Source: Pseudomonadota bacterium (GTDB lineage: Bacteria; Pseudomonadota; Alphaproteobacteria; Caulobacterales; Caulobacteraceae). Taken from it: a DNA stretch of 10,887 nucleotides. The translations under genes and the position numbers were made by a program. Under the pieces are notes generated by a model, which searched no databases, was not told the DNA's origin, and worked only from the letters and a program-made list of their open reading frames with translations. Numbering within the stretch: the first letter of the stretch is position 1; each line of letters starts with the position of its first letter. The stretch spans positions 1 to 10,887 of the forward strand of contig JAEZHG010000034.1 in assembly GCA_023436945.1 (NCBI GenBank), written 5' to 3'. Of the stretch, positions 1 through 10,887 are shown one piece after another.

Positions 1-343
1 GTGCTACGCGGTTCTGGACCAGAACCTGTGCGGTATCGAGGTCGGTACCCGGTTCGAAGGTCACGGTCACGGACACAGCGCCATCAGCCGTCGAGGACGA
101 CGTCAGATAGAGCATGCCCTCGACGCCGTTCACTTCCTGCTCGATCGGGGCGGCCACAGTCTCGGCCAGCGTCTCGGCAGAAGCGCCCGGATAGGCAGTG
201 TTGATGGTGATCGTCGGTGGCGCAATATCGGGATACTGCGACAGCGGCAGGTTCGGATAGGCGAAGGCACCAACCAGCGTAATGAAGGTGGCGATAACGA
301 TCGCGAAGATCGGCCTATCGATAAAGAAGCGGGAGAAATTCAT
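1..343 (-). CDS. RND multidrug efflux pump, inner-membrane subunit (AcrB/MexF type), N-terminal fragment
   Basis: This is the first 114 codons of a resistance-nodulation-division transporter, cut by the window edge; the reading frame is open to base 1. The protein begins MNFSRFFIDRPIFAIVIATF, the usual start of hydrophobe/amphiphile efflux RND pumps: a short cytoplasmic stretch ending in the conserved F-I-D-R-P-I-F, then the first transmembrane helix (about residues 11-28). Next comes the start of the periplasmic porter domain, with the typical L-P-L-S-Q-Y-P-D-I-A-P-P and Y-P-G-A-S-A-E-T segments and E-Q-E-V-N-G-V-E-G-M. Such pumps form a trimer in the inner membrane and drive proton-coupled export of drugs or other amphiphiles through an adaptor and an outer-membrane channel. 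The ATG is 32 bases after the stop of the adaptor gene, with GGAA about 7 bases upstream, so the two are surely co-transcribed. The substrate cannot be told from this fragment. The MexF subgroup is suggested by the N-terminus and the MexE-like partner, with moderate certainty. Confidence 0.93.
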   Translation of the reverse strand, partial: MNFSRFFIDRPIFAIVIATFITLVGAFAYPNLPLSQYPDIAPPTITINTAYPGASAETLAETVAAPIEQEVNGVEGMLYLTSSSTADGAVSVTVTFEPGTDLDTAQVLVQNRVA

Positions 344-375
344 AACTGTTTTCCGGCCTTAAGCCTCTCTTTCGA

Positions 376-1563
376 TCAATCTGCGTTGACGAAGGTGGCG
401 GAGGAGGCCGTCGACGCAGCGGTCGTCGGGGCCGGGTTTGCCGGAGCGTCTGAAGGCTTGATCTCGCCGTTCTGGGCGGTGACCTTCTGACCCGGACGGG
501 CGCGCTGCTGGCCGTTGATGATCACGCGGTCATCCGGCGTCAGACCCGTACGGATCACGCGCAGACCATTCACGACCGGACCCAGTTGCACCGGCTTGGC
601 ACCCACCGTGCCGTCCTGGGCAACGGTGAAGACCATGCGACGGGTACCATCGGCGATGATGGCCGAGTCAGGCACCAGCATGGCCTGATAGGAAGCCGCG
701 CCAGCCAGTTGGGCATGACCGAACATGCCCGGCTTCAGGAAGCCGTTGGCATTGGCAATCACGGCACGCAGGCGGATGGTGCCCGAGGCCGGATCATTGG
801 CGTTGTCGGTGAAGTCGAGCGTACCGGAATGGGTGAACTCGGCTTCGTCCTGCAGGCGGACCTTGATCGGGACCGGGCCCTTGGCGGATTCACGCTGGTA
901 ACGCAGGGCCGTGGCTTCCGAACCGTCGAATACGAAATAGATCGGCGAGGCCGAGACGATGGTGGTCAGAACGTCGCCAGCGGACGAGCCGCCGCCGATC
1001 AGGTTGCCCGGATCGACGCGACGGTCAGACACGCGACCCGAGATCGGGGCGGTGACGCGGGTGAACTCGAGTTCCAGATTGCGGGCGCGGATCGCGGCAT
1101 TGGCAGCGGCCAGTGCGGCCTCTGCGGTCTGTACGGCGGCCTTCTTGGCATCGAATTCGGCTTGGGAGACCGCTTGCGAAGCCAGCAGGGTCTCGGCACG
1201 GGCCAGATCGGCCTTGGCCAGAGCGCTCTGGGCCTGTGCCTGTGCCAGCTGGGCGCGTGCCGAGGCAAGGGCGGCCTGTGCCGGACGCGGGTCGAGGGTG
1301 AACAGCAGTTGGCCCTGACGGACATAGTCGCCGTCCTTGAAGTGGACCTGCTGGATGTAGCCGCCTACGCGGGCGCGTACATCGACATTGCGGGTGGCTT
1401 CAAAGCGTCCGGTGAACTGGTCCCAGTCAACGACCTCCTGCGACAGGGCGGTGGCAACAGTAACAGGCGGTGGGCCTTGTTCCGGTGCCTGCTGTCCTTT
1501 GGAACAGCCATAGAGGGCAACTGTCGCTAGGACAGACGCCACCGCGATCTTAACCGTGCGCAT
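376..1563 (-). CDS. RND efflux periplasmic adaptor lipoprotein (AcrA/MexE, HlyD family)
   Basis: Membrane fusion protein linking the RND pump to an outer-membrane channel. It has 395 residues, the usual family length. Residues 1-20 form a lipoprotein signal peptide (M-R-T-V-K-I, hydrophobic core, L-Y-G-C with lipidated Cys20; Tyr at -2 is slightly unusual). The D-W-D-Q-F-T-G-R-F-E-A segment and V-D-V-R-A-R-V-G-G-Y-I start the barrel/lipoyl half, as in MexE relatives. An Ala/Gln-rich alpha-helical hairpin follows (about residues 90-165), then F-T-R-V-T-A-P-I-S-G-R-V-S-D-R returning to the lipoyl domain, then beta-barrel and membrane-proximal domains. The tail is rich in Pro, Ala and Thr. Start choice: an in-frame GTG exists six bases upstream (1567-1569), but AGGAG stands 9 bases before the ATG at 1561-1563 and only 3 before the GTG, so I chose the ATG. 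The gene precedes the pump gene, and both are probably repressed by the divergent TetR protein. Confidence 0.94.
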   Translation of the reverse strand: MRTVKIAVASVLATVALYGCSKGQQAPEQGPPPVTVATALSQEVVDWDQFTGRFEATRNVDVRARVGGYIQQVHFKDGDYVRQGQLLFTLDPRPAQAALASARAQLAQAQAQSALAKADLARAETLLASQAVSQAEFDAKKAAVQTAEAALAAANAAIRARNLELEFTRVTAPISGRVSDRRVDPGNLIGGGSSAGDVLTTIVSASPIYFVFDGSEATALRYQRESAKGPVPIKVRLQDEAEFTHSGTLDFTDNANDPASGTIRLRAVIANANGFLKPGMFGHAQLAGAASYQAMLVPDSAIIADGTRRMVFTVAQDGTVGAKPVQLGPVVNGLRVIRTGLTPDDRVIINGQQRARPGQKVTAQNGEIKPSDAPANPAPTTAASTASSATFVNAD

Positions 1564-1630
1564 CGGCACAATCTCCTGGGGTATGAACTCGAGTTTTCAA
1601 CTGAACGCGCGAAAAAGGGAGGGGGCGCCC

Positions 1631-1648
1631 AGTCAACAGGTGTGGACT
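1631..1648. promoter_or_regulatory. Second, degenerate TetR-type operator (dyad)
   Basis: An interrupted dyad, AGTCAACAG followed by GTGTGGACT, with symmetric outer AGTC/GACT arms. It carries the same GTCAACAG half-site as the strong palindrome, starting exactly 40 bp away (1632 versus 1672), and the two dyad centres (1639/1640 and 1679/1680) are also 40 bp apart. It covers the predicted transcription start of the efflux operon. Binding by the neighbouring TetR protein is inferred, not shown. Confidence 0.5.
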
Positions 1649-1676
1649 TAAAGCTTAGGAGAACAGCACTTGTCAA
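1648..1676 (-). promoter_or_regulatory. Predicted promoter of the efflux adaptor-pump operon
   Basis: On the minus strand a perfect TTGACA (1676-1671) is followed after 17 bases by CTTTAA (1653-1648), a weak -10 box. Transcription would start near 1641 and leave a leader of about 78 bases before the adaptor ATG. The -35 box lies inside the 22-bp palindrome, so a bound repressor would block RNA polymerase. Confidence 0.5.
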
Positions 1677-1690
1677 CAGCTGATGACAAG
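1669..1690. promoter_or_regulatory. Primary TetR-type operator, 22-bp near-perfect palindrome
   Basis: Arms CTTGTCA (1669-1675) and TGACAAG (1684-1690) are exact reverse complements. The centre CAGCTG (1677-1682) is itself palindromic; only the A/A pair at 1676 and 1683 breaks the symmetry. It sits midway in the divergent intergenic region and overlaps both -35 boxes, the usual place for a TetR-family operator controlling itself and a divergent pump operon. The assignment to this TetR protein is inferred from position. Confidence 0.8.
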
Positions 1691-1698
1691 CCCATACT
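1670..1698 (+). promoter_or_regulatory. Predicted promoter of the tetR-family gene
   Basis: TTGTCA (1670-1675, five of six matches to the -35 consensus), 17 bases, then CATACT (1693-1698, four of six matches to TATAAT). The start would be near 1705, about 18 bases before the GTG start codon. The -35 box lies in the palindromic operator and overlaps the -35 box of the divergent promoter by five bases. Confidence 0.55.
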
Positions 1699-1722
1699 GC
1701 CCCCATTGAGCAAACGAGCTAA

Positions 1723-2307
1723 GTGTTGACCTCTGAAGTAAAACATCGCTCCCGCAATGCGGTTGCAACGCGTCAGGCCATACTAGATGCGGCACGTTCA
1801 CGTTTTATGGCGCATTCCTATGATGACGTGGGAATGCGCGATGTTGCGCGTGACGTTGGCGTCGATGCGGCACTGGTGTCGCGCTACTTCGGTGGCAAGG
1901 AAGAGTTGTTCGTAGAAGTGCTCGACAGCTGCAAGAAGCGCAGCCTGATGGACGGCGACCGCGCCACCTTCGGCGAGCGTATTGCCCGTGAAGCGATCAT
2001 GGGTTCGGCGGATGAGGAAGAAGAGGTCGGATTTACCGGTCTTCTGGTTCTGCTGCGCTCGCTGGGATCATCCAAAGCTCTGGATATTGTTCAGCAAAGT
2101 TCGAACAAATCGTTCTTCGAGCCACTGACCGAATGGTTGGGCGGAAAGCATGCCGCGGGGCGTGCGCGACTGGTCGCCGGTATCATCATGGGCGTCGCCA
2201 TCAGCCGTGAACTGACCCATGGTTATTCTGTGGTCGGTGAGGCCGAGCGCGAGGCCATGGTGCGACATCTGGCGGGCATACTTCAGGCCATCGTCGACGG
2301 CGAATAA
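1723..2307 (+). CDS. TetR/AcrR-family transcriptional repressor, divergent to the RND operon
   Basis: A 194-residue regulator of usual TetR-family size. Residues about 14-62 form the DNA-binding domain: A-T-R-Q-A-I-L-D-A-A-R-S-R-F begins helix 1, G-M-R-D-V-A-R-D-V-G-V begins the helix-turn-helix, and A-L-V-S-R-Y-F-G-G-K-E-E-L-F is the recognition helix plus the family signature into helix 4. The remaining helical half would bind a ligand, probably a pump substrate, and make the dimer. It contains an acidic run (D-E-E-E-E, about residues 87-91). The start is GTG at 1723, with only a weak GAG upstream; the next codon is TTG, so the exact start is not certain. The gene lies back to back with the adaptor gene and ends just before a bidirectional terminator. 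By analogy with AcrR-type regulators it should repress the pump operon and itself through the palindrome at 1669-1690. Confidence 0.92.
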   Translation: MLTSEVKHRSRNAVATRQAILDAARSRFMAHSYDDVGMRDVARDVGVDAALVSRYFGGKEELFVEVLDSCKKRSLMDGDRATFGERIAREAIMGSADEEEEVGFTGLLVLLRSLGSSKALDIVQQSSNKSFFEPLTEWLGGKHAAGRARLVAGIIMGVAISRELTHGYSVVGEAEREAMVRHLAGILQAIVDGE

Positions 2308-2310
2308 GAA

Positions 2311-2337
2311 AAAGGCGGGCCCATCGGACCCGCCTTT
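2311..2337. terminator. Bidirectional rho-independent terminator between the TetR gene and leuB
   Basis: Nine-base perfect stem AAAGGCGGG (2311-2319) and CCCGCCTTT (2329-2337) with a 9-base loop, which may pair further as CC/GG. On the plus strand it is followed by CCTTTTGTCTT and on the minus strand by a short T run (TTTTTC within and after the stem). It lies 3 bases after the TetR stop codon and 23 bases after the leuB stop codon, so it can end transcripts from both sides. Confidence 0.88.
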
Positions 2338-2360
2338 CCTTTTGTCTTGTCTGTGAGGGC

Positions 2361-3461
2361 CTAGGCCCAGTGCATCGGCACATGGCGCGCTGCGGCCCAG
2401 TGGATGGCGCGGATGGCATCGACGATGGCGCGGGTCGCCGCCTCGGTGCCGAGTTCACCGCCCAGATCACGCGTGACCTGACCCGAGGCCTGAACGGCGG
2501 CCACGGCGGCCTCGATGGAATCCGCCTCGTCTTCCAGACCAAAGCTGTGACGCAGCATCATCGATGCAGACAGGATGGTGCCAATCGGGTTGGCCTTGTC
2601 CTGCCCTGCGATGTCTGGTGCCGAGCCATGGATCGGTTCGAACAGGCCAGGGCCTTCACCGCCCAGCGAAGCCGACGGCAGCAGGCCGATGGAGCCACCC
2701 AGCACCGAGATTTCGTCCGACAGGATGTCGCCGAACATGTTCTCGGTCAGGATGACGTCATAGTCGCGCGGGCGCTGGATCAGGTGCATGGCCATGGAGT
2801 CGACCAGTGCGTGCTCCAGAGTGATGTCCGGAAACTCTTCGGTATGGATGCGGGTGACGGTCTCGCGCCACAGACGCGAGGTCTCCAGCACATTGGCCTT
2901 GTCCACCGAGGTCACCTTGCCACGGCGTTGCTCGGCAGCCTTGAAGGCGGCGCGGGTAACGCGCTCGATCTCTTCGACACTATAGGTGCACAGGTCCGAC
3001 GCGGTGGTCTCGGTGCGGGTGCGCTCGCCGAAATAGACGCCTCCGGTCAGTTCGCGGAAGACCAGCAGGTCCACACCCTCGACGATCTCGCGCTTCAGTG
3101 GCGAGCGGTGGGCCAGCGCGGGCGAGACCTGCAACGGGCGCAGGTTGGCGAACAGACCCATGGCCTTGCGCAGCGCCAGCAGGCCCTGCTCGGGGCGAAC
3201 GGGCTTGCCGTCATATTTGGGATCACCCACGGCACCCAGCAGAACCGCATCGGCCTTGGTGCAGGCCTCTTCGGTCGCCTTGGGCAGGGGCTCGCCCGTG
3301 GTGTCGATTGCGATGCCGCCGATCAGATGCGGCGTGAACTCGAAGCGGTGACCGTAGATGTCACCGATGCAGGTCAGGACGCGCTCTGCGGCCTTGGTAA
3401 CTTCTGGACCAACGCCGTCGCCAGCCAGCGAGACGATATTGAAGGTGCGTTTCTCGCTCAT
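2361..3461 (-). CDS. leuB: 3-isopropylmalate dehydrogenase
   Basis: Oxidizes and decarboxylates (2R,3S)-3-isopropylmalate to 2-ketoisocaproate with NAD+, the third leucine-specific step, in the cytoplasm. It has 366 residues, normal for the family. Visible signatures: A-G-D-G-V-G-P-E (residues 13-20), the substrate-binding Arg region L-R-K-A-M-G-L-F-A-N-L-R-P, catalytic Tyr in E-L-T-G-G-V-Y-F-G, catalytic Lys in S-V-D-K-A-N-V-L-E-T-S-R, and the metal-binding L-T-E-N-M-F-G-D-I-L-S-D-E. The nucleotide-binding F-E-P-I-H-G-S-A-P-D-I-A-G with K-A-N-P-I-G-T follows. The C-terminus H-W-A-A-A-R-H-V-P-M-H-W-A runs a little past the usual end. The ATG overlaps the leuD stop (ATGA), with AGGA about 9 bases upstream. 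Last gene of the ilv-leu operon, followed by the shared terminator. Confidence 0.97.
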   Translation of the reverse strand: MSEKRTFNIVSLAGDGVGPEVTKAAERVLTCIGDIYGHRFEFTPHLIGGIAIDTTGEPLPKATEEACTKADAVLLGAVGDPKYDGKPVRPEQGLLALRKAMGLFANLRPLQVSPALAHRSPLKREIVEGVDLLVFRELTGGVYFGERTRTETTASDLCTYSVEEIERVTRAAFKAAEQRRGKVTSVDKANVLETSRLWRETVTRIHTEEFPDITLEHALVDSMAMHLIQRPRDYDVILTENMFGDILSDEISVLGGSIGLLPSASLGGEGPGLFEPIHGSAPDIAGQDKANPIGTILSASMMLRHSFGLEDEADSIEAAVAAVQASGQVTRDLGGELGTEAATRAIVDAIRAIHWAAARHVPMHWA

Positions 3462-4069
3462 TGGGCAATCCTAGCTTGGGCTTGAGGGGCAGGGTCGTTA
3501 CGGGCCGCTTCGAACGCGGCAATCTGGTCGTCCTTGGCCAAGATCCAGCCAAGGGTATCGACGCCATCAAGCATGCATTGGCGCGCGAAAGCTTCGACCT
3601 TGAATGGGACGGGGGCGGCGTTGCCGCGCTGGATCTGGTTGTTCTCCAGATCGATGGTTACGGGTTGGTCCTGATGGGCGGCCAGATCGTCCCAGACCTC
3701 CTGGCTGACCACGATGGGCAGTAGGCCGTTCTTCAGGGCGTTGGAGGTGAAGATGTCGGCGATCTCGGTCGAGATGACGACCTTGAACCCATAGTCCAGC
3801 AGCGCCCACGGCGCGTGCTCGCGCGAGGAGCCACAGGCGAAGTTTGGACCGCCCAGCAGGATGCGGTGCTCGCTCGGGTCGATGCGGTTAAGGATGGCCT
3901 CGGGCTTGATCGAGCCATCGGCCTCATAGCGCCAGTCACGGAAGGCGTGCTGGCCCAGACCATCGCGGGTTGTCACGGTCAGGAAGCGGGCGGGAATGAT
4001 CTGGTCCGTGTCGATATTGGCTTGCGACAGGACAACAACCTTGGAGGTCAGGGACTTGAACGGTTCCAT
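3458..4069 (-). CDS. leuD: 3-isopropylmalate dehydratase, small subunit
   Basis: Swivelling (aconitase domain 4) subunit of isopropylmalate isomerase. With LeuC it converts 2-isopropylmalate to 3-isopropylmalate through isopropylmaleate. It has 203 residues, close to the family's roughly 200. It starts [10 protein letters not shown], shows N-I-D-T-D-Q-I-I-P-A-R-F-L (residues 18-30), the substrate loop G-G-P-N-F-A-C-G-S-S-R-E-H-A (residues 73-86), and I-A-D-I-F-T-S-N-A-L-K-N-G-L-L-P. The frame is open further upstream, but those codons lie within leuC and do not resemble the family. The ATG at 4067-4069 shares its A with the leuC stop (TGATG), with GGAGG 7 bases before it, so translation is probably coupled and gives equal amounts of both subunits. 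Its stop overlaps the leuB start by four bases. Confidence 0.97.
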   Translation of the reverse strand: MEPFKSLTSKVVVLSQANIDTDQIIPARFLTVTTRDGLGQHAFRDWRYEADGSIKPEAILNRIDPSEHRILLGGPNFACGSSREHAPWALLDYGFKVVISTEIADIFTSNALKNGLLPIVVSQEVWDDLAAHQDQPVTIDLENNQIQRGNAAPVPFKVEAFARQCMLDGVDTLGWILAKDDQIAAFEAARNDPAPQAQARIAQ

Positions 4070-5484
4070 CAGGCGACCTCCTCGGTAATGGCAGGATACT
4101 GGCGCGGGTCGGCCAGATATCCGGCGACGGCGCTGGCGGCAGCGGTGGCAGGGCTGGCCAGAATGGTGCGCGCGCCCTTGCCTTGGCGGCCTTCGAAATT
4201 GCGGTTGGAGGTCGAGACACACAGTTGCCCCTCGCCCACAGCATCGCCGTTCATGGCAATACACATGGAGCAGCCGGGGATACGCCATTCAGCTCCGGCG
4301 GCGATGACGACCTTATGGATGCCCTCTGCTTCGGCCTGCTGGCGAACAGCCTCGGAGCCGGGGACGACCAGCATGCGAACGCCATCTGCGATCTTGCGAC
4401 CGCGCAGAATGTCGGCAGTGGCGCGCATGTCGGTCAGGCGGCCATTGGTGCAGGAGCCGACAAAGACCACATCGACCTTCTCGGTGGTCGTGGCTTGACC
4501 CGCAGTGAAGCCCATATAGGCCAGAGCCTTGGCGTCGGATTCCGATTGTGGATGCGGTGCGGCCTCGCCGATCGGCATGGCGGCATCGGGGGTGGTGCCC
4601 CACGTGGCCATAGGCTGGATGGTGCTGCCGTCCAGAGTGACTTCCTTGTCGAATACCGCGCCTTCATCGGTCGCCAGCGACAGCCAGTCCTTGGCCGCGG
4701 CCTCATAGTCGGCGGGCACATATTTGCGGCCACGCAGCCAGTCGATGGTGGTCTGGTCCGGCGCGATCATGCCTGCGCGTGCGCCGGCCTCGATGGACAT
4801 GTTGCATAGGGTCATGCGCCCTTCCATGTCCAGCGAACGGATCGCCTCGCCGGCATATTCCAGCACATAGCCGGTGCCGCCGCCGAAACCGATTTCGGCA
4901 ATAATGGCCAGAGCCACGTCCTTGCCCGTGACGCCGGTTTGCAACTGGCCGGTCACGTTCACGCGCATGGTTTTGGCCTTGCGCTGGATCAGGCACTGGG
5001 TCGCCAGAGTATAGCCGACCTCGGAGGTGCCGATGCCGAAGGCCAGAGCGCCGAACGCGCCGTGGGTGGCGGTATGGCTGTCACCGCAGACAACGATCAT
5101 GCCCGGTTGGGTCAGGCCCAGTTCCGGACCCATGACGTGAACCACGCCGCGCTGGTCGCTGTCCCATCCGGCCAGTTCGATGCCGAAACGCTTGGTGTTG
5201 GCTTCCAGAGTCTCGACCTGTTTGCGGGCCTGCACGGTAATATAGGGGCGCTGACCATCCGGTCCTGCGGGCAGGGTCGGGGTCGAGTGATCCAGCGTGG
5301 CGAAGGTGCGATCCGGACGGCGAACCTTGAGACCACGGGCATCAAGCTCTGCAAAGGCCTGTGGCGAGGTGACCTCGTGGACCAGATGCAGGTCCACATA
5401 CATCACACCCGGCGTGTGTTCGTTCTCCGCCACGACGACGTGACGGTCCCACACTTTTTCATAAAGGGTCTTTGGCTGGCTCAT
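4069..5484 (-). CDS. leuC: 3-isopropylmalate dehydratase, large subunit
   Basis: Catalytic [4Fe-4S] subunit of isopropylmalate isomerase in the leucine pathway, 471 residues (typical about 465-475). The three cluster-ligand cysteines are all present: Cys345 in F-V-G-S-C-T-N-G-R, and Cys405 and Cys408 in [10 protein letters not shown]. Other aconitase-family signatures are V-W-D-R-H-V-V near the start, [35 protein letters not shown], and [11 protein letters not shown] near the end. The ATG is preceded by GGGGGAG at 7 bases. The gene follows the ilvM-type gene by 42 bases without an obvious promoter or terminator, so it should be transcribed from the ilv promoter. It overlaps leuD by one base. 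Confidence 0.97.
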
Positions 5485-5526
5485 TGGTACTCTCCCCCGC
5501 CGCAGATGCGGGCAGGGCTTTTAGGT

Positions 5527-5775
5527 TCAGGCGTTGGCGACGTTGGCAGGAGCTTCCAGACGACGGACGCCGAAAAGGCGGTCGATCTGCAGGCCCAGAT
5601 TGTTGATGCAACGGGTGCCGTCGCGGCTGGCCACGGTCAGGTCCAGCATGCGCCAGTCACCGGCATCGTTCATCTTCATGCCGTGGATTTCAAAACCGCG
5701 ACGCTCTACGAGGCCGATCAGACGCTGAAGCGAACCGTCAGCGCGGTCGATCTGGATGTGGATCGTGTTGCTCAT
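5527..5775 (-). CDS. ilvM: Acetolactate synthase small (regulatory) subunit, short IlvM type
   Basis: An 82-residue protein consisting of one ACT-like fold. It begins M-S-N-T-I-H-I-Q-I-D-R, has L-I-G-L-V-E-R-R-G-F-E-I-H-G-M-K-M (residues about 19-35), then L-D-L-T-V-A-S-R and I-D-R-L-F-G-V-R-R-L-E. The spacing of R-G-F, the paired Met residues and L-T-V-A-S matches my memory of E. coli IlvM (about 87 residues). The IlvH/IlvN type common in alphaproteobacteria is about twice as long, with a second C-terminal domain that is missing here. The small subunit stabilizes and activates the large subunit and, in other systems, sets feedback sensitivity. The start overlaps the large-subunit stop by four bases (ATGA), indicating coupled translation. 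The stop is intact and followed by a normal gap, so this is not a truncated ilvH. Confidence 0.85.
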   Translation of the reverse strand: MSNTIHIQIDRADGSLQRLIGLVERRGFEIHGMKMNDAGDWRMLDLTVASRDGTRCINNLGLQIDRLFGVRRLEAPANVANA

Positions 5776-7481
5776 CGTGAGCCCTCCATCATTTCAGAGT
5801 TGTTCTTGCCGGGGGGGACCAACGGCCAGACATTGTCTTCAGGGTTGATAATGACGTGCGCCAGTATGGGGCCGTCGGCGGCCAGCAGGCGTTTCAGGCC
5901 GTCTGTGACCTGTTCCTTGCTGTCGATACGGAAGGCCTCGATGCCAAAGGCTTCGGCGACCTTCACGAAGTCGGGGTTGTCGGACAGGTCGACCTCGGAG
6001 AAGTTCCGTTCGAAGAAGAACTCCTGCCACTGGCGCACCATGCCCAGACGCGAATTGTCCAGCAGAACGATCTTCAGCGGAATGTTGAAGCGTTTGACCG
6101 TGGCCAATTCCTGAATGTTCATCATCACGCCGCCGTCGCCGGTGATGGTGACGACGCAGGCGTCCGGATCGGCCAGCTTGGCACCGATACCGGCAGGCAG
6201 GCCAAAGCCCATGGCACCCAGACCACCCGAGGTGATGTGGGCTTGCGGGCGCGAGAACTCGCAGTGCTGGGCGACCCACATCTGGTGCTGGCCCACATCG
6301 CATGCGGCCATGAAGGACGGGCCTGCCAGCTTCGACAGCTCGTTCAGCAGGGCGGGGGCATAGACGCCTTCGCCCGGCGCATCATAGTTGACGGCGCAGG
6401 CGGCCATCTCGGCGCGGCACTTGTCGGACCAGTCCTGCACATTGATAGAGGCACCCGAAGCGATCTCGCGGTTCAGGGCCTCCAGATTGGGTTTCAGGTC
6501 GCCGACAACCGGAACGGCCACAGGGCGCAGCTTGCCGATTTCCGACGCATCGACGTCGAAATGGATGACGCCCGCATCAGGGGCGAACTCGGCCAGCTTT
6601 CCGGTGGCGCGGTCATCGAAACGCGCGCCGATGACGATCAGCAGGTCGGAACCCTGAACTGCATCATTGGCGGCGCGGGTGCCGTGCATGCCCAGCATGC
6701 CCAGATAATTGTCCTGGCCGGTCGGGATCGTGCCCAGCGCGTTCAGGGTCGAGACCTGCGGAATACCGGTCAGGCGTGCGAACTCGCGCACAGTTTCGAC
6801 CGCGCCGGAGATCTTTGCGCCGCCGCCTATATATATAATGGGGCGCTTGGCCGAACGGATGGCATCGGCTGCAGCCTTGATTGAGGCGCTGGCGGCGATG
6901 GCATTGTCGTTTGGCAGGTGGAAGGCGCGGGTCTTGGCCGTGGTCTGGAACTGGATGTCCTTTGGCAGGTCGATCAAGACGGGACCCGGACGGCCTGTAC
7001 GCGCGATGTGGAAGGCTTCTTCCATGATGGCCGGAATGTCGGCGGCATCGCGCACCAGATAGGAGTGCTTCACCAGAGGCATCGTCACGCCCATGATGTC
7101 GACTTCCTGAAACGCGTCCGTTCCCATGACGCCCTGCGGGACATTGCCTGTGATGCAGACCATGGGAACAGAATCCAGCATCGCATTGGCGATACCGGTA
7201 ACCAGATTGGTCGCCCCCGGACCGGAGGTGGCCATGCAGACACCGACCTTGCCTGACGCACGCGCATAGGAGTCGGCGGCAAAGGCTGCACCCTGCTCGT
7301 GGCGGCACAGATAGTGACGCACGCTGGAGCCAGCGATGGCGTCATAGATCGGCATGATGGCCCCGCCCGGATAACCGAACACTACATCCACGCCCATCCG
7401 CTCCAGAGTGGAGACGACGAGGCTCGCACCGGTTTGAACGGTGGTCTCGTTGGCGGGCATTTGAATCGTAGCGACGGTCAT
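5772..7481 (-). CDS. ilvG: Acetolactate (acetohydroxyacid) synthase large subunit, IlvG/ALS II type
   Basis: Thiamine diphosphate and FAD enzyme that condenses two pyruvates to acetolactate (Val/Leu), or pyruvate and 2-ketobutyrate to acetohydroxybutyrate (Ile). It has 569 residues. F-G-Y-P-G-G-A-I-M-P-I-Y (35-46) is followed by catalytic Glu62 in C-R-H-E-Q-G-A-A-F-A-A-D, then A-T-S-G-P-G-A-T-N-L-V-T-G. G-M-L-G-M-H-G-T-R-A-A-N and G-A-R-F-D-D-R-A-T-G-K mark the FAD domain. The thiamine motif G-D-G-G-V-M-M-N-I-Q-E-L begins near residue 448. The C-terminal N-V-W-P-L-V-P-P-G-K-N-N-S-E-M-M closely recalls E. coli IlvG, fitting the IlvM-type partner just downstream. The frame extends 24 codons upstream into ilvC; I chose the ATG at 7479-7481, although only a weak GGAA precedes it, because family similarity and the ilvC stop fit it. 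It lies 38 bases after ilvC. An equally valid name would be ilvB. Confidence 0.95.
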   Translation of the reverse strand: MTVATIQMPANETTVQTGASLVVSTLERMGVDVVFGYPGGAIMPIYDAIAGSSVRHYLCRHEQGAAFAADSYARASGKVGVCMATSGPGATNLVTGIANAMLDSVPMVCITGNVPQGVMGTDAFQEVDIMGVTMPLVKHSYLVRDAADIPAIMEEAFHIARTGRPGPVLIDLPKDIQFQTTAKTRAFHLPNDNAIAASASIKAAADAIRSAKRPIIYIGGGAKISGAVETVREFARLTGIPQVSTLNALGTIPTGQDNYLGMLGMHGTRAANDAVQGSDLLIVIGARFDDRATGKLAEFAPDAGVIHFDVDASEIGKLRPVAVPVVGDLKPNLEALNREIASGASINVQDWSDKCRAEMAACAVNYDAPGEGVYAPALLNELSKLAGPSFMAACDVGQHQMWVAQHCEFSRPQAHITSGGLGAMGFGLPAGIGAKLADPDACVVTITGDGGVMMNIQELATVKRFNIPLKIVLLDNSRLGMVRQWQEFFFERNFSEVDLSDNPDFVKVAEAFGIEAFRIDSKEQVTDGLKRLLAADGPILAHVIINPEDNVWPLVPPGKNNSEMMEGSR

Positions 7482-7519: not shown

Positions 7520-8533
7520 TCAGGCAGCTTGAGGTTTGGCGGCTTGCAACCAAGCCATGCGTTCACGCAGGCGCGCACCGACCTCTTCGATCTGGGTGTC
7601 GCGGTCGACCTGCATCAGGCGCTCGTATTCCGGCTTGCCCTGCTCGTTCTCTTCGATCCAGCGGCGGGCGAACTCGCCCGACTGGATGTCGTTCAGAACG
7701 TCCTTCATGCGGTCAGCGGTCTCGTCATTGACGACGCGCGGACCCGAAACCAGAGCGCCCCACTTGGCGGTTTCCGAGATGAAGTGGTGCATCTTGGAGA
7801 TGCCGCCTTCGTAGAACAGGTCCACGATCAGCTTCAGTTCGTGCAGGCATTCGAAATAGGCGATCTCGGGCTGGTAGCCGGCTTCGACCAGGGTGTTGAA
7901 GCCGCGGATGACCAGTTCCTTGGCACCGCCGCACAGGACGGCCTGTTCACCGAACAGATCGGTTTCGGTCTCTTCGCGGAAGGTGGTTTCCAGCAGGCCG
8001 CCGGTCGCACCGCCATTGCCCTTGGCATAGCCCATGGCGCGGTCGCGGGCCTTGCCGGTGACGTCCTTCTCGATAGCGAACAGCGACGGCACGCCACGAC
8101 CACGCTGGAACTCGCGGCGGACCAGATCGCCCGGACCTTTCGGCGCGACCAGAATGACGTCCATGTCCTCACGCGGGGTGATGCGGCCATAGATGATCGA
8201 GAAGCCGTGGGCGAACAGCAGGGCCGAGCCCTTCTTGGCGTTCGGCTCGATGATGTCCTTATAGACCTCGGCCTGAACCATGTCCGGCGTCAGGATGGCG
8301 ATTATGTCCGCATCCTTGACGGCTTCGGCAGGCTCGGCGGTGGTCAGGCCGTCTTCGGTGGCATGCTTCCAGCCGGTGCCGCCGTGACGAACGCCGACGA
8401 TCACGTCGTGACCGGAGTCCTTCAGGTTCTGGGCGTGGGCGCGGCCCTGCGAGCCATAGCCGATGATGGCGATCTTCTCACCGGCGATAGCGCCCGGCTT
8501 GATGTCTTCGTTGGTGTAGATGGTGATGGCCAT
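7520..8533 (-). CDS. ilvC: Ketol-acid reductoisomerase (NADP+), class I
   Basis: Isomerizes and reduces 2-acetolactate or 2-aceto-2-hydroxybutyrate to the dihydroxy acid, with Mg2+ and NADPH, shared by Val, Leu and Ile synthesis. At 337 residues it is the short class I form. The Rossmann motif G-Y-G-S-Q-G-R is at residues 25-31 and is followed by V-G-V-R-H-G-G, the phosphate-contacting segment that normally favours NADPH. Catalytic His lies in [16 protein letters not shown] follows, the metal ligands are in E-T-D-L-F-G-E-Q and [12 protein letters not shown], and [11 protein letters not shown] is the substrate loop. The ATG is 3 bases after the ilvD stop, with GAGGA about 10 bases upstream inside ilvD, so translation is probably coupled. 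Confidence 0.97.
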
Positions 8534-8536
8534 AGT

Positions 8537-10288
8537 TCAGGCGTCCTCGGAAACGGTGTCGGTTTGGGCGATGGCTTGGTAGCGATCCGGCGTCTGTGCC
8601 GGAGGCGGGTTCGGGATGGTCACGGCACCCTGCGAAGCCGAAGCGACGCTGGCGCGGTATTTGGCAAAGACGCCGCGGGCCTCGCGCAGTTCACGCATTG
8701 TGAAGGCGGCGCGGCGGGCGGTCAGATCGGCATCGGTGTCGATGCGGCGGTTGGTGACATCGATGGTGATGATGTCGCCGGTCTCGATCAGGGCGATCGG
8801 GCCACCGACAGCAGCCTCCGGCGAGATATGACCCGCAACGAAACCGTATGAGGCACCGGAGAAGCGGCCATCGGTCAGCAGGGCGACGTTCTCGACCTTG
8901 CGACCCTTCAGGGCCGCGGTGATCTGCAGCATCTCGCGCATACCGGGGCCGCCCTTGGGGCCTTCATAGCGGATGATGATGACATCGCCTTCGCCCGCCT
9001 CGCCCGACTGGACGGCGGCGAACGCGTCCTCTTCACAGTCATAGACCTTGGCCGGACCTTCAAAGCGGTCGACCTTGTGGCCGGTCAGTTTGATGATCGC
9101 GCCCTCTGGGGCGACGTCACCATAGATGACAGCATAGGAGCCGCGCGCCATGACGGGTTCGTCAACGTTGGTGACGACCTGCTGGCCCGGTGCTTCTTCA
9201 GCCTTGGCCGCCTCGGCAAACAGGCTCTCGCCTGAAACGGTCGGGGTGTTGATGATCTTGCCCGCTTCGGCCAGACGCTTGGCGACCAGACGGGTGCCGC
9301 CAGCGACATACAGGTGCGAGGCTAGGAAACGGCCACCCGGCTTCAGGTCACAGATGACCGGAGCCTCGACACAGGCCTGATGGCAGTCCTCGATACCGAA
9401 ATCGACACCGGCCTCTGCGGCGATAGCCGTCAGGTGCATGACCGCATTGGTCGAGCCGCCCGAGGCCGAGCAGGCGATGGCTGCGTTCTTCAGGCTGGCG
9501 CGGGTGATGTATTTGCGGGCGTTGTCTCCGGCAAAGACGCGCTCGACTGCCAACTGGCCACAGCGATAACCCTCGGCAGCCTTGTCCGGATCGACGGCGG
9601 GAACGTCATTGGCCCCCATGGGCGAGATACCCATCATCGACAGGGCCATGGCCATGGTGTTGGCCGTGAACTGGCCACCGCAGGCACCGGCTCCGGGGCA
9701 GACGGCGCTTTCGACCTTCTTCAGTCCGTCATCATCCAGCGTGCCTGCGCCGTGAGCGCCGATGGCTTCAAAGACTTCCTGAACCGAGACTTCCTTGCCG
9801 TCGATACGGCCCGGCATGATGGTGCCGCCATAATAGACCAGACCTGGAATGTTCAGACGGGCCAGCGCCATGGCCGCTGCAGGAATGGTCTTGTCGCAGC
9901 CGACGATGCAGATGACGCCATCCAGCTGATGGCCCTCGATAGCCAGCTCGATAGAGTCAGCGACAACTTCGCGGCTGATCAGCGAGGCCTTCATCCCCGG
10001 CGTGCCCATCGAAATGCCGTCGGTGACCACGATGGTGTTGAAGTCCACCGGCCAACCGCCCGCATCCATGACGCCCTGACGGACATCCTTGGCCAGACGG
10101 TCCAGATGCATGTTGCAGGGGGTGACCGTCGACCAGGTGTTCACGATGCCGATCATCGGCTTCTTGAAGTCACCATCCTTCATACCAGCGGCGCGCAGAT
10201 AGGAACGTGCGGCAGCGCGGCTCGGCCCTTCGGTTACCGAAGCACTGCGTGCGTTTGGTGCGGAACTCTTTGGGGTCTGGTCGGTCAT
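8537..10288 (-). CDS. ilvD: Dihydroxy-acid dehydratase (short, probable [2Fe-2S] subgroup)
   Basis: Dehydrates 2,3-dihydroxyisovalerate and 2,3-dihydroxy-3-methylvalerate to the 2-keto acids preceding Val/Leu and Ile. It has 583 residues. The cluster cysteines are Cys58 in V-T-P-C-N-M-H-L, Cys131 in V-G-C-D-K-T-I-P, and Cys203 in P-G-A-G-A-C-G-G-Q-F-T-A-N. Lys133 of C-D-K is the residue carbamylated in the family, and the second-half motif D-G-R-F-S-G-A-S-Y-G is present. The N-terminal pattern (T-P-C-N-M-H-L, D-G-I-S-M-G-T-P-G-M) and length fit the subgroup with a stable [2Fe-2S] cluster, unlike the roughly 616-residue [4Fe-4S] enzyme of E. coli; the cluster type is inferred. The ATG at 10286-10288 is chosen over an upstream in-frame TTG (10328-10330) that abuts the terminator T-run. 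Only GAAG precedes it closely. First structural gene of the operon, 41 bases after the attenuator. Confidence 0.96.
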   Translation of the reverse strand: MTDQTPKSSAPNARSASVTEGPSRAAARSYLRAAGMKDGDFKKPMIGIVNTWSTVTPCNMHLDRLAKDVRQGVMDAGGWPVDFNTIVVTDGISMGTPGMKASLISREVVADSIELAIEGHQLDGVICIVGCDKTIPAAAMALARLNIPGLVYYGGTIMPGRIDGKEVSVQEVFEAIGAHGAGTLDDDGLKKVESAVCPGAGACGGQFTANTMAMALSMMGISPMGANDVPAVDPDKAAEGYRCGQLAVERVFAGDNARKYITRASLKNAAIACSASGGSTNAVMHLTAIAAEAGVDFGIEDCHQACVEAPVICDLKPGGRFLASHLYVAGGTRLVAKRLAEAGKIINTPTVSGESLFAEAAKAEEAPGQQVVTNVDEPVMARGSYAVIYGDVAPEGAIIKLTGHKVDRFEGPAKVYDCEEDAFAAVQSGEAGEGDVIIIRYEGPKGGPGMREMLQITAALKGRKVENVALLTDGRFSGASYGFVAGHISPEAAVGGPIALIETGDIITIDVTNRRIDTDADLTARRAAFTMRELREARGVFAKYRASVASASQGAVTIPNPPPAQTPDRYQAIAQTDTVSEDA

Positions 10289-10328: not shown

Positions 10329-10357
10329 AAAAAACCCGCTTCCAGTTGGAGAGCGGG
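10329..10357 (-). terminator. Attenuator terminator hairpin (segments 3:4) upstream of ilvD
   Basis: On the minus strand CCCGCT (10357-10352) pairs with AGCGGG (10340-10335). Inside the loop TCC (10350-10348) can pair with GGA (10343-10341), and six T follow (10334-10329). It lies between a leader ORF and ilvD, 41 bases before the ilvD ATG, so it should stop transcription before the structural genes unless segment 3 is captured by segment 2. Confidence 0.9.
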
Positions 10358-10423
10358 GTGGTGCAGGTCTGACTAGGTTTTGTCTTGTCAGGTTACAGGC
10401 AGCCACACCGCTCGTCGGAGCGG
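10335..10423 (-). promoter_or_regulatory. Four-segment transcription attenuator of the ilv-leu operon
   Basis: Segment 1 CCGCTC (10423-10418) and segment 2 GAGCGG (10413-10408) form a perfect 6-bp hairpin with loop CGAC. Segment 2 can instead extend as GAGCGGTGTGG (10413-10403) and pair with CCACCCCGCTC (10361-10351) at 10 of 11 positions, forming an antiterminator that removes segment 3 from the terminator. Segments 1 and 3 share the identical 9-mer ACCCCGCTC. Segment 1 begins 4 bases after the last control codon, so a ribosome stalled there would mask it and favour 2:3. The mechanism is inferred from this arrangement and from known enterobacterial ilv, leu and his attenuators. Confidence 0.88.
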
Positions 10424-10522
10424 GGTAATAAGTACCGATACGAGGAGTACGCGGCCGGTCACGCGCTCGGCGAAAGCACGAACGGCGGTGGCAAACTTCG
10501 CGATGTGTGAAGCGGTGTTCAC
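10388..10522 (-). CDS. ilvL: Leader peptide of the ilv-leu attenuator (44 aa, Val/Leu/Ile-rich)
   Basis: A short ORF of 44 codons between the predicted promoter and the attenuator, opened by GTG (10522-10520) with GAGG 8 bases upstream and closed by TGA (10390-10388). Codons 25-32 read V-L-L-V-S-V-L-I, so seven of eight consecutive codons are for the end products of the operon's pathways. They use GTA (three times), CTC (twice), CTT and ATT. More Val and Leu codons follow (L35, V39, L41, V43). The peptide itself probably has no function; ribosome speed over codons 25-32 would report charged tRNA-Val, tRNA-Leu and tRNA-Ile. The first 24 codons are Ala-rich and carry no such run. The peptide is longer than the 32-residue E. 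coli IlvL, and I see no clear sequence similarity beyond the hydrophobic run. The ORF was found by reading the minus strand; its function is inferred from position and composition. Confidence 0.88.
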   Translation of the reverse strand: MNTASHIAKFATAVRAFAERVTGRVLLVSVLITPLRRAVWLPVT

Positions 10523-10549
10523 AGCGGCAACCTCGATTTAGTTGCCAGC

Positions 10550-10578: not shown

Positions 10579-10887
10579 CAGGACATGAGCGTTGTTGCGC
10601 AAAAAAGCTTCATTATTGCGGGCTTTTGCGGAATGTTTGGGCGCAACAGTGCCTAAAATGCAGGTCATTAGGGTTGAAAATGATCTCCAAGCCAACGGCG
10701 GAGTGGGAAATTTTACCGCCAAAGGCATAGTCATTCCTTGTGGCCAGTGTTCACCTAACAAGATCATTTCTAAAGTTCCGTATTTGGGCAAAGAATCGGT
10801 TGCCTTCGTTTAAGTGCCTGCCTATACAGCCACCTCGCTCGACGGCGGGCCGCACTTCGGTGGGGCGGGCCGGAGAGGGTTGGCCTT
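10579..10887. other. Upstream region without a supported gene: low-GC stretch then GC-rich tail
   Basis: From about 10579 to 10813 the base composition is clearly lower in GC than the surrounding genes. A plus-strand frame (TTG at 10592 to TAA at 10813, 73 codons) and a minus-strand frame (TTG at 10791 to TGA at 10519, 90 codons) are both open. Neither has a good start or ribosome-binding site or resembles a family I know, and the minus-strand frame runs through the ilv promoter. The stretch contains A- and T-tracts and inverted repeats and may be an upstream regulatory region or gene remnant. From 10814 to the edge it is GC-rich, with a 9-base direct repeat GGCGGGCCG (10844-10852 and 10864-10872) and no recognisable gene. 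Confidence 0.5.

Follow-up and report, generated by a model that had tools for sequence, protein, structure and literature searches.

We conclude with strong confidence that the short leader on the minus strand of the window, by which we mean the whole 10,887-nucleotide stretch of DNA analysed here, is a ribosome-mediated transcription attenuator, and that it controls a single operon containing much of the pathway to the branched-chain amino acids. From the computed parts of the leader, the degree to which they are conserved, the bias in codon use and the folds obtained with a ribosome on the RNA, we infer where transcription starts, that the leader is translated, that transcription terminates and how the operon responds to starvation. 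The initial annotation had proposed the same mechanism, and the anatomy, the presence of the leader at 56 of 58 loci, its codon choice and the ribosome-placed folding all speak for that proposal. In kind, the leader is a conserved further example of a classic, known type of switch. Its interest lies in the control of a combined operon by one leader, in the codon bias and in a helix that straddles the terminator in relatives.

Reading the minus strand from 10887 to 10150, we located the parts of the leader upstream of ilvD-ilvC-ilvG-ilvM-leuC-leuD-leuB (Table 1). The promoter, the ribosome-binding site, the 44-codon GTG reading frame and the Val/Leu/Ile run of the initial annotation were all read at their claimed positions, the promoter by way of its conservation. 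The helices also agreed, by sequence and fold, with what had been described: 1:2 has 6 bp, 2:3 has 10 of 11 pairs, and 3:4 has 6 bp plus an inner 3 bp, which fold as UCC/GGA, and is followed by six T. At the control run of the window, 7 of 10 codons encode Val, Leu or Ile. A strict consensus scan of the window reported neither a promoter nor a terminator at the leader, so the promoter call rests on conservation: the pattern TTGC-N17-CATAA was found in the window and in 14 of 14 relatives (L001-L012, L020 and L033), and it was not found in the remaining 42 of the 57 sequences. Transcription would accordingly be expected to start near 10543. The leader was more stable than its shuffles (folding z-scores of −3.0 and −3.2), and an Rfam covariance-model search found no family matching it at E up to 1. 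A search of a large protein database with the leader peptide gave, at E ≤ 0.1, a single relative of 61 aa, in keeping with the earlier suspicion that the reading frame is probably unannotated.

Table 1. Features of the leader and of the operon in the window.
Feature	Position	Strand	Basis
-35-like TTGCAA	10578-10573	-	sequence
-10-like CATAAC	10555-10550	-	sequence; 17 bases from -35-like TTGCAA
Shine-Dalgarno-like GAGG	10534-10531	-	sequence; GAGG or GAGGG kept across L001-L003 alignment
Leader ORF, GTG start, 44 codons + TGA stop (10390-10388)	10522-10388	-	sequence, peptide MNTASHIAKFATAVRAFAERVTGRVLLVSVLITPLRRAVWLPVT; relatives at 56/58 loci
Control run GTA CTC CTC GTA TCG GTA CTT ATT	10450-10427	-	sequence; rare-codon bias
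Segment 1 CCGCTC (1:2 partner 10413-10408)	10423-10418	-	sequence; 76.4% of cells pair, 53 leaders
Segment 2 GAGCGGTGTGG	10413-10403	-	sequence; 2:3 pairs in 81.6% of cells, three further pairs counted
Segment 3 CCACCCCGCTC, overlapping terminator 5' arm	10361-10351	-	same basis as segment 2
Terminator hairpin (3:4), CCCGCT 10357-10352 / AGCGGG 10340-10335	10357-10335	-	sequence, fold; 87.7% of cells pair
Terminator T run TTTTTT	10334-10329	-	sequence
ilvD, ATG at 10288	8537-10288	-	PRK00911 above cut-off; PF00920, PF24877
ilvC	7520-8533	-	TIGR00465
ilvG, acetolactate synthase large subunit, probable start ATG 7481	5772-7481	-	PRK08978 above cut-off, run on 5772-7478
ilvM-like small subunit	5527-5775	-	PF13710 ACT_5 above Pfam cut-off; PRK11152 below NCBIfam cut-off
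leuC	4069-5484	-	TIGR00170
leuD, probable start ATG 4069	3458-4069	-	TIGR00171, run on 3458-4078
leuB	2361-3461	-	TIGR00169
Probable end-of-operon terminator, 9-bp hairpin + TTTTT, 3' of leuB	2309-2334	-	by-eye reading of sequence

The leader was followed through relatives of IlvD. Eighty of the 152 loci encoding a relative were taken, and the survey covered 58 of them (L001-L060 minus L019 and L050, which have no upstream DNA), titled mostly Brevundimonas, Caulobacteraceae, Hyphomonadaceae or unplaced Alphaproteobacteria. A leader with a Val/Leu/Ile run precedes ilvD at 56 of the 58 loci (L036 was counted by reading, not by rule) and is absent at L056 (Sphingomonas) and L059 (Gemmatimonas). 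Because many of the relatives are close kin, these loci are not independent cases. We also applied a fixed rule (an ORF 20 or more codons long, Val, Leu or Ile at 7 of 10 codons, and a terminator after the ORF) to 58 ilvD upstream regions, namely the window and 57 loci, with L059 left out. The ORF was found in 56 of these regions and the ORF plus terminator in 55; the failures were L056 and L036, together with L049, which has no T run. The combination of ORF and terminator occurred in none of 21 ilvD regions of distant organisms that served as a negative control (L061-L080 and L059), in none of 3270 random windows (15 ORFs), in none of 1160 shuffles (15 ORFs) and in none of 1000 shuffles of the upstream region of the window (26 ORFs).

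The run, stop codon, segments and T run of the window closely match those of L001-L003. Across the aligned relatives, the predicted leader start is GTG or TTG, with ATG in L027, and the peptide is conserved in the part encoded by RNA segment 2 and the codon run, its first half varying freely. The alignment yields a covariance model for a leader that has no Rfam match. This model, built from 36 leaders (the number in our alignment A3), matched over its full length in all 10 genomes searched (E no higher than 8.1e-22), each of which holds a locus of the surveyed set, five of these loci having been used in model building. Among 149 genomes of G001's family, 58 had a match at E 0.001 or better. 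Among the matches listed (30 loci), ilvD lies downstream in 12 (L085, L111-L120 and L123), an ilvD-like fragment and ilvC lie downstream at L131, and the remaining ones are partial terminator matches or other leaders.

The control codons are mostly rare ones. We counted codons −26 to −9 in 57 leaders and compared them with ilvD of 56 of them (L051 was dropped for a stop in the assumed frame). For Val, GTA accounts for 89 of 165 codons (54%) in the leaders but for only 34 of 2481 (1.4%) in ilvD. For Leu, the leaders use CTT 133 times, CTC 145 times and CTG 78 times out of 365, compared with 42, 170 and 1215 out of 1577 in ilvD, and for Ile, ATT makes up 75 of 98 codons in the leaders versus 150 of 1630 in ilvD. 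Theory, as laid out in PMC1183508, holds that leader codon choice tracks the charging of isoacceptors more than rarity as such. A possible alternative driver is the avoidance of RNA structure in the run. A bias this strong towards rare codons allows theories of how control codons are chosen to be tested outside the enterobacteria.

To model the switch, we set a ribosome at given codons of the leader and computed the equilibrium fold of the RNA lying 3' of it, taking the mean over codons −18, −16, −14 and −12 as the stalled state. In the window, the 3:4 hairpin had a probability of 0.99 once the ribosome had reached the stop codon, against an average of 0.02 when it was stalled in the run. When the 60 bases preceding the stop were shuffled, 0 of 200 shuffles reached this difference. 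The model was run over 56 sequences (L054 was left out). The difference in P(3:4) was at least 0.5 in 47 of them, the window being among the clearest, and below 0.5 in nine (L013, L016, L018, L020, L035, L036, L045, L049 and L052); across sequences, 18 of 2400 shuffles reached the difference of their own sequence. At the stage when segment 4 has yet to be transcribed, 2:3 of the window is fully formed whenever the ribosome stands at codon −11 or earlier, and therefore each codon of the run could act. With no ribosome on the RNA, the equilibrium fold gives the terminator of the window a probability of 9%; consequently, this calculation does not support the part that textbooks assign to 1:2, which is to allow termination when no ribosome translates the leader.

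The pairing of the segments was measured on an alignment of 53 of the 57 leaders (A1; L006, L009, L011 and L033 left out). Standard pairs filled 76.4% of the cells for 1:2, 81.6% for 2:3 and 87.7% for 3:4, compared with 42–58%, 36–59% and 26–64%, respectively, in slid controls; taking the structure from the window biases this comparison in its favour over the slid versions. The initial annotation had looked to an alignment of relatives for both a conserved codon run and complementary changes in the segments. The run is kept (56 of 58 loci). As to the changes, the arms of 2:3 and 3:4 are nearly invariant on the 53 leaders, too conserved to be informative, and show no covariation beyond shuffles; the covariation score of 1:2 is slightly above shuffles, 20 of 500 of which reached it. 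What supports the helices is thus that their complementarity is conserved, and not that changes compensate one another. Individual positions of 1:2 are unpaired in 5 to 20 of the 53 sequences, and this helix is poorly kept in distant relatives. Runs of 2:3 pairing of at least six bases occur in 46 of the 57 sequences; the 6-base 2:3 core of the window, taken alone, is within chance (reached by 52 of 300 shuffles). A poorly set antiterminator rule, limited to six bases of the first hairpin arm, was passed by 4 of 58 regions and by none of the controls. These rule-based tests of 2:3 were superseded by the fold model.

Taking the sequence and the folding model together, the leader very probably works as an attenuator for the seven-gene operon, one that is ordinary in kind. 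RNA polymerase would start near 10543, with a ribosome trailing it on the 44-codon leader. A shortage of charged tRNA for Val, Leu or Ile would slow the ribosome within the run; segment 2 would then pair with segment 3, no terminator would form, and ilvD through leuB would be transcribed. With a good supply, on the other hand, the ribosome would reach the stop codon and cover segment 2; segments 3 and 4 could then pair as the terminator, releasing a transcript of about 215 bases. One leader would in this way probably read all three branched-chain amino acids for one operon.

Could a metabolite-binding riboswitch or a protein-bound terminator control the operon instead, the ORF being incidental? 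A terminator does precede the operon, and the greater stability of the leader fold over shuffles would also suit such an element. However, no Rfam family matches the leader at E up to 1, and the conserved Val/Leu/Ile frame, the rare codons and the ribosome-dependent switch would all be left unexplained, which makes this account very unlikely; the riboswitch was rejected on the missing Rfam match and the unexplained codon run. We give hardly any credence to the ORF being the gene of a small functional protein with its own terminator, the promoter of the operon lying downstream of the ORF. Functional small proteins encoded in 5' untranslated regions exist, peTrpL being one, and here a ribosome site precedes the ORF and the peptide is partly conserved. 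Yet the conserved part of the peptide is the part that doubles as RNA segment 2 and the codon run, the first half is free to vary, and a promoter would hardly fit into the roughly 40 bases between the T run and the ilvD start, where the scan reported none.

The leader might also be an attenuator that is decaying, or constitutively read through, in the strain of the window. Two features of the window would fit such a state, namely that its group is without the straddling helix of 39 relatives and that its operon has neither ilvE nor leuA. The run, stop, segments and T run are nevertheless intact and close to those of L001-L003, and the fold switch is among the clearest, so that decay, too, is most improbable and a working attenuator is the reading that we retain.

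The straddling helix was studied on a second alignment (A2) of 39 relatives, which was chosen after a single-sequence helix scan in which many matches were within reach of shuffles; it leaves out the window, L001-L012, L020, L033, L048, L053 and L054. In A2, a helix of up to 11 pairs (GGATCGC.CGCA : TGCG.GCGGTCC) pairs the bases immediately following the leader stop with bases past the T run, and thus lies around the terminator, between the leader stop and the ilvD start (e.g., L014:8924-9029). It pairs in 92.1% of cells versus 23–46% in slid controls, none of 500 shuffles reached its covariation score, and its covariation support is the best among the helices counted. The helix is absent in the window, L001-L012, L020, L033 and L048. 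It cannot help termination because RNA polymerase must already have passed the terminator by the time the 3' arm is transcribed. A tentative idea, which we think more doubtful than not, is that Brevundimonas and its relatives have a lineage-specific layout in which the helix serves as a second layer of control on the read-through RNA (by re-folding, protection of the RNA or access to the first start codon) and that the group of the window lost it or never had it. A further hairpin just before the ilvD start in relatives paired in 68.8% of cells, with 20–48% in slid controls and no excess over shuffles, and is not claimed.

The adjacent genes of the operon overlap or sit within about 45 bases of each other, and about 40 bases separate the T run of the leader from the ilvD start. 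The seven ilv and leu genes that had been predicted downstream were recovered with NCBIfam and Pfam, the ilvM-like one falling below its NCBIfam cut-off with an ACT domain above the Pfam cut-off. The guess of an alphaproteobacterial origin was right as well: the nearest IlvD proteins, 94 and 95% identical, belong to Brevundimonas pishanensis (L001) and a Brevundimonas MAG (L002), and by this protein similarity the window can be called Brevundimonas-like. In eight relatives inspected, with the genes named by eye, the space between ilvM and leuC holds an ilvE-like gene (L001, L003, L013 and L052) or a leuA-like gene (L004, L022, L026 and L041); in the window, that space (5484-5527) contains neither. 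A leuA family search gave matches directly after ilvG in seven genomes, below the family cut-off, and no leader was seen upstream of leuA at L146, L154 and L155 (best 5 of 10). Ten relatives' genomes each have exactly one acetolactate synthase above the family cut-off, and by its coordinates it lies about 3 kb downstream of a strong leader match.

How does the leader compare with known systems? The enterobacterial ilvGMEDA and leu leaders combine a run of control codons with mutually exclusive 1:2, 2:3 and 3:4 helices. Compared by description, the leader here is built in the same way and differs in that the gene order is another one, ilv and leu genes are combined, the start is GTG and no Rfam leader family matches. 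Both enterobacterial operons are listed as attenuated in PMC1183508. The initial annotation had implied more novelty than the literature leaves, since attenuation has already been published for ilvBN of Caulobacter, a genus in the same family: the ilvBN leader of Caulobacter crescentus (Tarleton, Malakooti and Ely 1994) is a described attenuator which, according to PMC4117421, has tandem Ile and Val codons, a terminator and ribosome pausing. In contrast to that leader, again by description, the present one precedes ilvD at the head of a seven-gene ilv-leu operon and contains Leu codons too. An alphaproteobacterial ilvB leader peptide (Vitreschak and others 2004, cited in PMC1273637) is likewise a case of leader peptide attenuation of a branched-chain operon, in the same bacterial class, but precedes ilvB instead of ilvD. 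An ilvD motif in print comes, according to PMC8632094, from Veillonella. In the titles and abstract openings searched, which cover the literature in part, no description of a leader before ilvD in these bacteria was found.

Several further observations were made along the way. At L145, the same place as L131, a leader is followed by a 197-codon ORF resembling only part of IlvD and then by ilvC, after which come ilvB, ilvE and leuC, named by eye. A second type of leader, with Met/Ile/Thr codons (e.g., TTMMIIITPTIGTGRTRAL) and a similar terminator, occurs at L121, L122, L124-L129, L132, L134, L138 and L139, where it stands before small genes in genomes of G001's family; one protein downstream of such a leader has 51 relatives, a few of them named hypothetical protein of Phenylobacterium. 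Locus L008, on a contig titled as a Bordetella MAG, carries a Brevundimonas-type ilv operon with the leader, and its title is probably a binning error. Downstream of the operon, the window contains RND efflux genes (2-343 and 376-1569, minus strand) and a divergent TetR-type regulator (1723-2307, plus strand); in several relatives (e.g., L015 and L023), RND efflux/TetR-type genes lie upstream of the operon instead. In L011, a ribosomal RNA operon (1-4431) lies upstream of the leader, and such an operon may be the reason that many contigs of relatives, possibly also the window, end shortly before the leader. Finally, a TTGGAA-N5-TTCC inverted repeat, or TTTCTTCCA or TTTTTTGCNCAA in other groups, stands 216–227 bases before the leader stop. 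In a total of 872434 bases there were 39 matches, including overlapping ones. The repeat or related motif keeps this near-fixed distance in 24 of the 57 sequences (near 10606 in the window) and could possibly be the site of a regulator.
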